Of a DNA stretch of 43,974 bases, positions 12,901 through 20,251 are shown piece by piece. This DNA is from Ascidiaceihabitans sp. GTDB lineage: Bacteria; Pseudomonadota; Alphaproteobacteria; Rhodobacterales; Rhodobacteraceae. The position numbers and the translations under genes are program-made. Position 1 is the stretch's first letter, and every line of letters begins with the position of its first letter. Where the stretch lies: positions 1-43,974 of the forward strand of contig JAOEQC010000009.1 in the NCBI GenBank assembly GCA_028388995.1, given 5' to 3'. The notes beneath the pieces were generated by a model. That model saw only the letters and a list, made by a program, of their open reading frames with translations, was not told where the DNA came from and did not search any database.

Positions 12901-15399
12901 CTAGCTTTTTGGCATCTTGAGGGTCAAGTTTCGGCTGCCCTTTTTGTAGCGTAGTTCGTTGTCGCCAATGGCTGAGACGCGTCCACCATCGATACGATCG
13001 CCAACTTGAACTTTTTGATAGCGGCCATTTGAAAGACGGACCAAAGCTCGACGGCTAGATGGTTTGCCGTAAACGCCGATCAGATTAACGTTGCGAAGGT
13101 TGATCGCATTCTTGACCGTCGCTGATTTTGCGACACTGGCGGACGACGGAATTTTAGGAACAACAACTTTTGGCGCGACTGACGCAACACGCGTTCCTTG
13201 ATACGTTGATTGATTCGCCTTGGTGCGTTTGACGATCCGCGCGAAATTCTTTGGACGTCCATCTGGGCGTACAGATGCCGTAACTGCCTGTAGATTCGTT
13301 GGACCTTCAATGACTATCCCGCCAACACGTGGTGCCAGTCCCGCAAGTGAAGCCGCCGCCGCCGCTGCGTCATTTTGTGCGTTCTCAGTGGCTGGATCGA
13401 CATCTCGTTGCGCAACGGCTTGTTCAACTGCCGGGCGCAATCTTGGACGTAATTGAGCAAGTTCTGATCGTGAAAGCCCCCCATTTACTGAGCGTTCGTT
13501 TTGTTCAACAAGATTTGACGGGCGTGATTGTGGTCGTGTTTTTGCAATCAAGGCAAGAGCTGGATCCACTTTTTCTGGCAAAGCTTTGCGTTCCGGCATC
13601 TTTGGCGGTGTAACTGCTGGGCTACTTAAGACAGTGACGCTGTTGGGCGTTATCGCACCATTGATCGTCGGAACGACCAACCCATTAGAACCGAGCGTAA
13701 AGGATGTGCCCGCCGCCAAGGATGTTGTTTGTTCGCCAAGTCCGCGGTCAGTTATCAGCGCCCCAACATTGGGCAACGCAATAGCATCGTTGGATGAACT
13801 GACGGGATCGGTGTTTGTAATATATAGGTCATCCAGGCTGATCAATGATGCGGGTTGCGGGACTTCTGGCGAAACAGGCCATATTCGAGTTGCCGCGTAG
13901 TTTGCTGGAAGTTCTTGAGCTGAAAGTTCTGGAAATGCAACGACAGGATCAGCCTGTGGTGCGCGTAGGGCGTCCAATACGGCCGTGTCTTCAGGGCTTA
14001 GGTCAGACCATGGGGTTACGGTTTCAATGTTTGGCCCTATGCCCTCTGATGGGGTAGGTGCCAAGCCCGAGGAGGGTGCCTCAGCAATTGCGTCGTCATT
14101 TGGGGAGTTGAAGAAGCGGGCAAGACCTTCGTCCATAAAGACAGAGGCCCAAGCGGCCACACCAACAAGGAAAAGTAATAATATGGCAGTTAAGATAAGG
14201 CCTAAGAATTTTGGTTTTCCACCAACGAAAGCTTTGCGTGCACCAAAAATTGTTAAACGATGCGCCTCTGTTGTTGGTTGGGTTAAAATTGGCGCTGGTG
14301 CTGGTATCGAATCTTTGCCAGATTTGCTTCGCCGGCTCAAGAACCCTTCTGCGATCTGAGATTCAGGCGGATCGATCGCGACCAATCCGGGTGTTTCAGA
14401 TAGTGTATCCTCTATCGAAGGGACAGAGGCAGAGATGACTGAGGTTGCCAGGATGTTTCGGGTTGTAACTGCAAGCGATGGAGACGGTCTATTTGGTGCC
14501 AGACGACTTGCGAAGCCAACATCTACTGGGTTTTCAGACATCTGGGTAGGGGATTTGATGGCTGTTGGGGGCGCAACGGCCACGGCATCAGGCGCAAGTC
14601 TTGGTTTTGTTGTTTCAGTCGGTATTATGGGTGGAGAGACAAGTTTTTCAGCCGCGACCTCGTTAAAACTGTCCGTAATTAGCTGTTCTTCGCTGACGCC
14701 GTTTTCGGTCGCCTGTTCTGCTATCGGCGTGGCTAATTCTGGCTCTTCATGTTCCGGCACGCCTTCCTCAGAAACGGCTACTGTTTCAACAATAGGAATG
14801 GTAGAAACTTCAGGTTCCAGGTGCTCAGGCTCGAGTTTGGGAATGATTGCCTGCGGAATGTCAGCAGCGTTTCCCACTACGACAAGTACAGTTTGGTCAG
14901 GAACAATTGTTAAATCGCTATTCGGCGAGGTTGCACCGAAAAATGGTTCGCCGACGAAGTTACCTTCCTCAGGGATCGCGACCCAGCTTACGGGGTTAAA
15001 GTTATGCTCTCTTGCAAATGCTTTAGCTTCTGCCAAGGTCTCGCAAGCGACTGCTGCGACATAGGTTTGTGACTGATCCGAACTTACATCATAGGCCAGA
15101 TCAGAAATGGCATAAGGAGTCGCACCTTCTAGAGCATCAAGCGCGAGTTGGTCTCGCTCATCTTCGCTTATGTCACCCGTTTCAAGCGTAATATATTTGA
15201 TTTTATCGTTTGGAATGATCAACTTGCTGCTGATCTCATTATCACTGCATTGACGCGCTTTGGCTTCCAATTTGGCTAGATCGCCAGCCAAATCCGTAGA
15301 ATCGAGAGCAACTTCATCAACCAAACGCCAGCCATCCGCTGCGCGCAGCAGCAGACAAATGCCCTCAAAAGAAAGGGAAAGCGCAAAATTCGGCTTCAT
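12901..15399 (-). CDS. Conserved-type hypothetical with one TM; N-terminus PilN/GspL-like, C-terminus PilP/GspC-like, long disordered Pro/Ala-rich linkers
   Basis: DQLALDALEGATPYAISDLAYDVS; TM FLGLILTAILLLFLVGVAAWASVFM; C-term NLIGVYGKPSSRRALVRLSNGRYQKVQVGDRIDGGRVSAIGDNELRYKKGSRNLTLKMP. Confidence 0.7.
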   Translation of the reverse strand: MKPNFALSLSFEGICLLLRAADGWRLVDEVALDSTDLAGDLAKLEAKARQCSDNEISSKLIIPNDKIKYITLETGDISEDERDQLALDALEGATPYAISDLAYDVSSDQSQTYVAAVACETLAEAKAFAREHNFNPVSWVAIPEEGNFVGEPFFGATSPNSDLTIVPDQTVLVVVGNAADIPQAIIPKLEPEHLEPEVSTIPIVETVAVSEEGVPEHEEPELATPIAEQATENGVSEEQLITDSFNEVAAEKLVSPPIIPTETTKPRLAPDAVAVAPPTAIKSPTQMSENPVDVGFASRLAPNRPSPSLAVTTRNILATSVISASVPSIEDTLSETPGLVAIDPPESQIAEGFLSRRSKSGKDSIPAPAPILTQPTTEAHRLTIFGARKAFVGGKPKFLGLILTAILLLFLVGVAAWASVFMDEGLARFFNSPNDDAIAEAPSSGLAPTPSEGIGPNIETVTPWSDLSPEDTAVLDALRAPQADPVVAFPELSAQELPANYAATRIWPVSPEVPQPASLISLDDLYITNTDPVSSSNDAIALPNVGALITDRGLGEQTTSLAAGTSFTLGSNGLVVPTINGAITPNSVTVLSSPAVTPPKMPERKALPEKVDPALALIAKTRPQSRPSNLVEQNERSVNGGLSRSELAQLRPRLRPAVEQAVAQRDVDPATENAQNDAAAAAASLAGLAPRVGGIVIEGPTNLQAVTASVRPDGRPKNFARIVKRTKANQSTYQGTRVASVAPKVVVPKIPSSASVAKSATVKNAINLRNVNLIGVYGKPSSRRALVRLSNGRYQKVQVGDRIDGGRVSAIGDNELRYKKGSRNLTLKMPKS

Positions 15400-18283: not shown

Positions 18284-19120
18284 TTAAGTTTTCTTAGTGT
18301 CGTCAACGATGTTCAACGTCGCAACGCCAGAATTGCCAAGCTCGACAGAAGCGAATGGCCCACCATGACACATGTTACCTGGGTCTTGGCTGTCCAACAC
18401 ATCACTCGCTGCAAATGTTTCTGCAGCAAACTGTTCAGCGTTGTCTTTTGGTCGATAGCCAAGGAAGCTGGCTTTTGCGTTGTCGACAGGCACCCGGTCA
18501 TTGTTTGATACGCCGTAGACGACAGCAAAGCCTGTCACAGGTGTATCGACAGCGCGTGTCACCAGCTGGATTAGATCATCGTATGATAACCAAGACCCAA
18601 CAGCGCGAGGGTTGCCGACGTTTGCGGCAGACAGAATCCGCATGCAAACGGATTCAATACCGCGTTTGTCCCAGTAAAGACTAGCCAAATCTTCCGCAAA
18701 GCATTTTGCCAGGCCATAGTAGGTGTCTGGGCGGTGCGGCGCATCGGTTCCAATGAATTCGTTTTTAGGGTGCATACCAACTGCGTGGATTGAAGAAGCA
18801 TAAACAACACGGCGCACACCGTTTTTAAATGCGGCTTCCCACACGTTATAGGCACCAACGATGTTGGATTGAAGGATTGCATCAAACGGTGCTTCGTCTC
18901 CAATTGCGCCAAAGTGGACAACCATGTCTGCGTCCTTAAGTAGGTCAATCATTTGATCAAGGTTGGCCAAGTCAGCTTTCACATAGCTTTCACCCGCGTA
19001 AAGTGTGCCGAGCTCGTCTGCCAGGTCGGTTGAAATCAACCGATCTGCCATTTTGCTAAGCGGTTCGCGCAAGTGAGATCCAAGACGTCCAGCGGCGCCG
19101 GTAAGAACGATTTTTTTCAT
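18284..19120 (-). CDS. NAD-dependent epimerase/dehydratase, uronate dehydrogenase-like
   Basis: LTGAAGRLGSHLR; VVYASSIHAVGMHP; DTYYGLAKCFAEDLASLY (YxxxK); RILSAANVGNPRAVGSWLSYDD. Confidence 0.82.
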   Translation of the reverse strand: MKKIVLTGAAGRLGSHLREPLSKMADRLISTDLADELGTLYAGESYVKADLANLDQMIDLLKDADMVVHFGAIGDEAPFDAILQSNIVGAYNVWEAAFKNGVRRVVYASSIHAVGMHPKNEFIGTDAPHRPDTYYGLAKCFAEDLASLYWDKRGIESVCMRILSAANVGNPRAVGSWLSYDDLIQLVTRAVDTPVTGFAVVYGVSNNDRVPVDNAKASFLGYRPKDNAEQFAAETFAASDVLDSQDPGNMCHGGPFASVELGNSGVATLNIVDDTKKT

Positions 19121-20251
19121 GATGTGTTTCCTTTTCTGGCCAATTTAGAAAGAGCCGCGGCTATGCGGTCCAGTGCTATGTTGAGGACATCTTCAGAGCA
19201 AGCTGCGGAGATACGAAAGAAAGGCGATAGGTCATAGGCGCTGCCTGGCACCGCGGCGACTTTGGCTTCGGATAAGATGTATGCGGTAAATGCTGTGTCA
19301 TCTTCTAGTGCAATACTCTCTTCAGTCGCGGCACCTATGAAGTGTTCACAATTTATATAGGCGTAGAATGCGCCATCTGGTGGAGCCAGCGTCAAGCCAT
19401 CGATCCCTTTGATACGTTCGACAACCAGATTACGCCGTGCTTCAAATGCGGATTTGAAGAGGGTGACGCTGTTTTGGGGGCCATTCAGTGCGGCCGTTGC
19501 AGCTGCTTGGGCCACCGAACATGCACCCGATGATATCTGTGACTGCACTTTGGTCATAGCTTTGATTAAAGGGGCAGGGCCTGCGCCATAACCAATGCGC
19601 CAGTCGGTCATCGCATAGGCCTTTGATACACTGTTTGCGATCAACACTTGATCGCTCCAATCTGGATTGGCCGAAAGGAAAGAAACGTGTTTCTTGCTAT
19701 CAAAAGTGATGTGTTCGTAAATTTCATCCGACATAACCAACACGTGCGGATGGTGGCGGATTACATCGCCAAGCTCTGAAAACTGCTGTGCCATAGGACG
19801 TCCCAGATGGATTGGACGGCAGATTCAACAAAAGCCAACGAGTGTGAGGCGTAATTGCTGCCTCAAGCGATTCAGGCGTTAGACGAAACCCGTTGTCGGG
19901 CGGGCAATCGATAACAATAGGTAGTCGACCAAGGATCAAAACCGTGTCCTTGTACTGACCGAAATATGGTGCACAAAGCAGAACTTCGGACGTTTTTTCG
20001 AATGTCGGTATGAACGCATCAAAGATGACCTGCTTGGCACCGTTTCCATCCGCTGGTGGATAGTGCTTTTCACCGACTTTAGCAGCTTGATAAGCTGCCT
20101 CAACGACGTGGGCCGGCGTATCAAAATCTGGCTCGCCCAATCCCAAATCGATCACGTCATGGCCTTCGGCTTTTAGTGCTTTGGCATTTTGGCTTACAGC
20201 TGCTGACGTAGAGGGTTTTATTGCATCCAACCGCTTTGCCAGGTAATTCAC
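19117..20251 (-). pseudogene. Class I/II PLP aminotransferase (aspartate aminotransferase-like), disrupted
   Basis: N-terminal half in ORF 19724-20251 (...LLLNLPSNPSG), C-terminal half in ORF 19117-19794 (SDEIYEHITF...NSVSKAYAMTDWRIGYGAGP) in another frame; shorter than family between HYPPADG and NGAKQVIFDA. Confidence 0.88.

Follow-up and report, generated by a model that had tools for sequence, protein, structure and literature searches.

A single gene in the window (the whole stretch of DNA analysed here, 43,974 nucleotides) joins a GspL/PilM-type domain to a GspC/PilP homology-region (HR) domain. Our computational analysis establishes both folds and their fusion in one reading frame, together with a predicted topology, the distribution of the gene, and its presence in genomes that have no T2SS, T4P or secretin. 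The explanation that we favour, with moderate confidence, is that a lineage-specific orphan envelope scaffold of Rhodobacteraceae arose by exaptation of GspL and GspC/PilP modules, which became separated from the type 4 filament and T2SS machines. The architecture is a new combination of already known modules, and a literature search found no paper describing the protein. The gene and its parts are as follows.

12901..15399, minus strand: whole gene, 832 aa, encoding a predicted single-pass inner-membrane protein with a GspL/PilM-like N-terminus and a GspC/PilP-HR-like C-terminus.
14929..15399, minus strand: one-lobe actin-like (RNase H-type) domain of the GspL-cytoplasmic/PilM type, residues 1-157 (AlphaFold2, Foldseek, hhalign).
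14272..14928, minus strand: variable Pro/Ala/Glu-rich linker, predicted to be cytoplasmic and probably disordered, residues 158-376 (composition, low conservation).
14128..14271, minus strand: conserved juxtamembrane motif (RLTIFGAR..GGKPKFLG) and predicted transmembrane helix (core 398-418), residues 377-424 (conservation, hydropathy, positive-inside rule).
13768..13905, minus strand: conserved block, predicted to be periplasmic, residues 499-544, ANYAATRIWP...DDLYITNTD...DAIALP (conservation, invariant columns).
13432..13536, minus strand: RP-module, RPxxRPxxLxExxERxxxGGxxRxELAxLRPxxRP, residues 622-656, with two RPxxRP motifs (motif counts, spacing, model).
13252..13269, minus strand: third RPxxRP motif, residues 711-716 (motif scan).
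12904..13152, minus strand: GspC/PilP HR beta domain, residues 750-832, with six strands at 772-828 (model, Foldseek, profiles).

The open reading frame starts with ATG, and both peptides quoted in the initial annotation, which had read the protein as a possible fusion of PilN/GspL-like and PilP/GspC-like domains, lie inside it. Relatives of the protein are encoded at 62 loci in a scan of species genomes, many of them aligning over the full length, with best-segment identity of at least 36%. Because the frame is conserved over its whole length in other genomes, it is a real gene under constraint. Four conserved blocks stand out in the alignment (residues 1-157, ~377-430, ~499-656 and 745-832), the intervening linkers being variable; the stretch at residues 499-544 has no known match. 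Promoter and terminator scans gave results at chance level only.

The N-terminal domain was modelled with AlphaFold2 (residues 1-160, with 51 family sequences) at a mean pLDDT of 92.9. When the model was compared with PDB structures by Foldseek, with matches considered at E<=0.001, cytoplasmic domains of GspL ranked first (4pht_X, 5tkw, 1yf5, 4pht_Y and 1w97; E 6.6e-8 to 8e-7, with 6.6e-8 for 4pht_X and 1.2e-7 for 1yf5), followed by PilM (~3e-6) and then by FtsA structures (E 4e-5 to 6e-4). The top match, 4pht_X, is GspL crystallised with GspE. A profile of the domain, searched against ~237 alphaproteobacterial genomes outside Rhodobacteraceae, gave exactly one match (E=3e-5), and this is a genuine T2SS GspL encoded between GspK-like and GspM-like genes; hhalign of a broader family alignment against the same GspL returned E=7e-9. 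Weak matches to Pfam PilM_2 were seen in 3/30 family members (best E=0.003). Against PDB sequences the profile found nothing relevant, the matches being CENP-S and, as repeat artefacts, designed TPR proteins, and the T2SS GspL and GspC of one genome (G017), which are divergent, gave no match or only a trivial one in hhalign, and hence no direct homology support. For this domain, fold comparison and hhalign are the informative methods, and the profile search of PDB sequences is uninformative. The N-terminal resemblance to GspL/PilM is confirmed to exceed chance. The first strand of the domain reads FALSLS and has no acidic phosphate-loop residue, for which reason the domain probably does not bind nucleotide in the manner of PilM.

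At the other end of the protein, an AF2 model of residues 495-832 folds the last ~60 residues into six beta strands at pLDDT ~90. The top seven Foldseek matches of this C-terminal domain in the PDB are all PilP or GspC; its fold matches include PilP 3jc8_Pa (E=1.9e-4) and the GspC HR domain 3oss_C (TM 0.82 relative to the target). Sequence profiles agree, since an HR profile built from 39 diverse members and searched against all PDB sequences places PilP 2y4x (E=0.0043), PilP 2lc4 and GspC 7oio (E=0.0066) first, at E 0.004-0.007. Among the 39 members, Pfam PilP is matched by 37 and T2SSC by eight, and the NCBIfam families TIGR03021 pilP_fam and GspC_delta by 36 and 13, respectively. Scanned singly with Pfam and NCBIfam, the window sequence gives sub-threshold PilP matches only, at 26.2 bits for TIGR03021 pilP_fam (E=1.3e-5; cut-off 34.65 bits) and at 17.2 bits, with a suggestive E-value, for PF04351 (cut-off 25.6 bits). 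Because this sequence alone lies below every curated cut-off, the case for homology is built on folds and family profiles. An hhalign comparison of the HR domain with the GspC/PilP-like protein of another T2SS (genome G357) gave a weak match (E=0.004). The C-terminal resemblance to PilP/GspC is likewise confirmed to exceed chance.

Structure prediction of the two termini had been set beforehand by the initial annotation as the test that could refute its reading, and both expected folds indeed appeared. The PilP/GspC-like C-terminus was thereby borne out as proposed. At the N-terminus the GspL label holds and the PilN label does not: the nearest relative is PilM or the cytoplasmic domain of GspL and, to our knowledge, PilN has no cytoplasmic domain of the GspL/PilM type.

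A second, short protein of ~85-105 aa, consisting essentially of the HR domain alone, was found in many Rhodobacteraceae genomes, at the following positions and at similar loci L155-L165.

L126:1426-1740: HR-only short protein.
L127:1480-1734: HR-only short protein.
L154:2769-3032: HR-only short protein.

In L126 and L127 the gene is flanked by a purF-like gene on one side and, on the other, by a short-chain dehydrogenase gene followed by surE, and one related HR-only protein scores above the Pfam T2SSC cut-off (28.6 versus 27 bits). These short proteins have neither a signal peptide nor a transmembrane helix, and for that reason a periplasmic location cannot be assumed for the HR domain of every protein that carries it. 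A cytosolic GspC/PilP-type domain, as they suggest, would be odd.

The two halves of the fusion protein are separated by one hydrophobic helix at about residues 398-418, preceded by a linker (residues 161-376) that is rich in proline (13%), alanine (11%) and glutamate (11%), as anticipated in the initial annotation, which had described a single transmembrane segment after a linker of ~200 aa. A dominant hydrophobic helix is present in all 25 diverse members examined, and its N-terminal flank is the more positively charged one in 25/25. Because of this charge difference, the positive-inside rule predicts an N-in, C-out topology. In the 25 members RPxxRP occurs 56 times, where shuffled sequences would give 1.3. 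The spacing of the two motifs in the RP-module is conserved, mostly at 29 residues, and most of the stretch is modelled at pLDDT ~86-93. In 14 Rhodobacteraceae genomes, a profile of the module matched the focal family and, besides it, a few marginal sequences at E 0.009 or worse; it detected no other protein family, and nothing in the PDB matched. Judged from these sequence patterns, the RP-module, which the initial annotation does not mention, is a new conserved module, periplasmic by prediction and specific to this protein family.

The HR profile matches all 150 sampled Rhodobacteraceae genomes, which span 73 genera, and the N-terminal domain is present in one copy in each of 40/40 genomes. 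Among nine divergent members of the family that were selected, eight have the N-terminal domain; in the exception (G149), the HR domain is present and the N-terminal domain is not recognised by the profile. Outside the family, neither end was found in the ~237 other alphaproteobacterial genomes, apart from the true T2SS GspL described above, and nothing credible was seen for the HR domain. One HR match in genome G205 (L125) was rejected as a weak match in a spurious frame opposite another coding sequence. Two weak matches were seen in plasmid records, one of them unannotated and the other named only 'hypothetical protein'. Among the alphaproteobacteria sampled, the protein thus appears to be confined to Rhodobacteraceae and to occur in every complete genome tested.

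The gene neighbourhood offers little guidance. At most of the 28 loci that were compared, a co-directional metZ gene (O-acetylhomoserine sulfhydrylase-like) lies directly upstream, and the downstream genes are variable. This adjacency, noted across L134-L153 and the window, is persistent with no obvious functional reason, and beyond it the neighbouring genes give no functional hint. The Pfam-annotated genes of the window are metabolic, transport and regulatory, including cobalamin, amino-acid, zinc-transport and TRAP-transport genes; Pfam scans of the main open reading frames found no pilus or secretion genes near the fusion gene, just as the initial annotation had stated. Elsewhere in the window, two overlapping minus-strand frames (19117-19794 and 19724-20251) match different parts of PF00155 (167-361 and 72-163), so that the aminotransferase gene at 19117-20251 looks split by a frameshift or an assembly error.

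A check of co-occurrence with T2SS/T4P ATPases had been proposed in the initial annotation. Full-length GspE/PilB-type ATPases are present in 7/40 Rhodobacteraceae genomes, compared with 40/40 for the N-terminal domain. The N0 domain of GspD, to which the HR domain usually binds, was found in three of 24 genomes (PF21305), all 24 of which carry the focal gene. One genome (G017) has the fusion and, besides it, an entire T2SS that includes a separate GspL, GspM, GspC, GspE and GspD, so that the focal protein is not the GspL of a T2SS, nor its GspC. These observations support the decoupling of the gene from T2SS and T4P. They also substantiate the word 'orphan' in the earlier proposal of an orphan envelope scaffold, of which the scaffold function is our inference.

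Secretins are far more widespread, occurring in 145/150 Rhodobacteraceae genomes. The focal gene is retained, with both its ends, in four complete genomes that have no secretin (G062, G094, G095 and G178). In G094 a change of frame within the low-complexity linker divides the gene in two (L166:2979-6090), which may be a sequencing or assembly error or a real break. The N-terminal domain has a dN/dS of 0.17 between G062 and G094, the same purifying selection as between secretin-bearing relatives. Since congeners of these strains still have a secretin, the losses are probably recent, so that retention of the gene tests independence only moderately well.

As an envelope scaffold, the protein would most likely bridge cytoplasm and periplasm as an envelope-crossing scaffold or coupler. 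On the cytoplasmic side, the one-lobe GspL/PilM-type domain may dock a cytoplasmic partner; on the other side of the membrane, the long Pro-rich arm, the RP-module and the HR domain could hold a partner in the periplasm or outer membrane. Rhodobacteraceae abound in the sea, and a protein that every complete genome tested encodes, assembled from components of secretion machines which the majority of its hosts do not have, suggests an uncharacterised envelope function. The presence of GspL and GspC/PilP modules in one chain outside these machines also bears on the evolution of the type 4 filament platform.

A more far-reaching version of this explanation, which we advance tentatively, is a trans-envelope coupler independent of T2SS, T4P and Tad, in which the GspL and GspC/PilP modules and the new RPxxRP module would form a core, perhaps essential, system with partners of its own, such as a glycosyltransferase carrying an MshEN domain on the inside. 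If true, the platform of a filament machine would have been exapted into a stand-alone housekeeping system.

The near-universal secretin raises another explanation, namely that the Tad (type IVc) pilus of Rhodobacteraceae has in this protein an accessory or alignment factor specific to the family, with the HR domain contacting the Tad secretin CpaC and the N-terminal domain contacting the Tad cytoplasmic apparatus, in place of GspL/GspC-type parts, which Tad systems are not otherwise known to possess. HR domains bind the N-terminal domains of secretins in known systems, and a CpaF-like Tad ATPase is present in 37/40 Rhodobacteraceae genomes, in keeping with the secretin count. However, the four secretin-less genomes retain the gene, with N-terminal selection unrelaxed between two of them, and in the neighbourhoods compared the gene does not lie beside pilus genes. 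A role in the Tad pilus is possible and is weakened by the secretin-less genomes; we consider it doubtful.

The cytoplasmic partner could instead be a family-wide GT2 membrane glycosyltransferase with an MshEN domain, in which case the protein would link the periplasm, through a GspL-GspE-like contact, to a polysaccharide synthase that possibly responds to c-di-GMP. MshEN is a domain type found at the N-terminus of GspE/PilB-like ATPases, and the best fold match of the focal N-terminal domain is the GspL crystallised with GspE. An MshEN domain was found in 23/24 Rhodobacteraceae genomes, the secretin-less ones included, and at nine loci from eight genomes it is N-terminal in a protein of ~550-710 aa; the three of these that were scanned with Pfam are GT2 glycosyltransferases. 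Loci of MshEN-domain GT2 genes include L204:4528-6405, L205:4748-6826 and L208:5229-7205. Because both genes are near-universal, however, their co-occurrence is uninformative and this partner is only a lead; the two genes are also unlinked, and in one genome (G083) an MshEN match is missing although the scaffold is present. As the main explanation, we regard it as unlikely.

An FtsA-like role, or that of a polarity or division organiser whose actin-like N-terminal domain recruits the protein to a cytoskeletal or division structure, would fit the FtsA structures that follow GspL and PilM among the fold matches, and universality across the whole family is as expected of a core cell-cycle protein. 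GspL and PilM nevertheless score better, and because the domain has ~160 aa, one lobe and a first strand (FALSLS) devoid of the acidic residue, nucleotide-driven polymerisation is unlikely. This role is quite improbable. Finally, it could be argued that a low-complexity membrane protein carries coincidental motifs, given that the window sequence on its own reaches none of the curated family cut-offs. Chance or trivial similarity is nevertheless highly improbable, since folds and profiles independently support each end and the protein is conserved in 73 genera.

The envelope scaffold that we favour can be compared with each known system from which its modules would derive. With GspL it shares an actin-like cytoplasmic fold followed by one transmembrane helix, N-in (predicted here). 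The solved cytoplasmic domains of GspL have ~225-240 aa, whereas the focal domain is shorter and has one lobe; the focal protein also has a linker of ~220 aa before the membrane and an HR domain at its C-terminus. The ferredoxin-like periplasmic domain of GspL was not seen in the model of residues 495-832, which contains helices, disorder and the HR domain only. GspL is encoded with the T2SS (GspE/GspM/GspD), while the window has no T2SS genes and most genomes with the focal gene have no T2SS. PilM belongs to the same actin-like fold family but is soluble, about twice as long, two-lobed and ATP-binding, whereas the focal domain is membrane-tethered and one-lobed and differs from it in the first strand. 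A Tad pilus component would be expected to co-occur strictly with the Tad secretin, a pattern from which the secretin-less genomes depart.

PilP shares the HR-type beta domain and is the top fold match of the C-terminus. It is, however, a periplasmic lipoprotein that works with PilN, PilO and PilQ, whereas the focal HR domain forms the C-terminus of a transmembrane fusion whose gene has no pilus genes around it; by sequence reading, the focal N-terminus has no lipobox of a lipoprotein signal peptide and is instead a conserved folded domain. With GspC, the protein shares a C-terminal six-strand HR fold placed after one transmembrane helix (its periplasmic location is predicted here), and the GspC partner, the N0 domain of GspD, is missing from most of the 24 genomes examined for it, all of which carry the focal gene. 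In GspC the cytoplasmic tail is only short and a PDZ domain is often present, whereas the focal protein has ~397 residues before the helix, including the folded GspL-like domain, and its predicted periplasmic arm carries the new RP-module.
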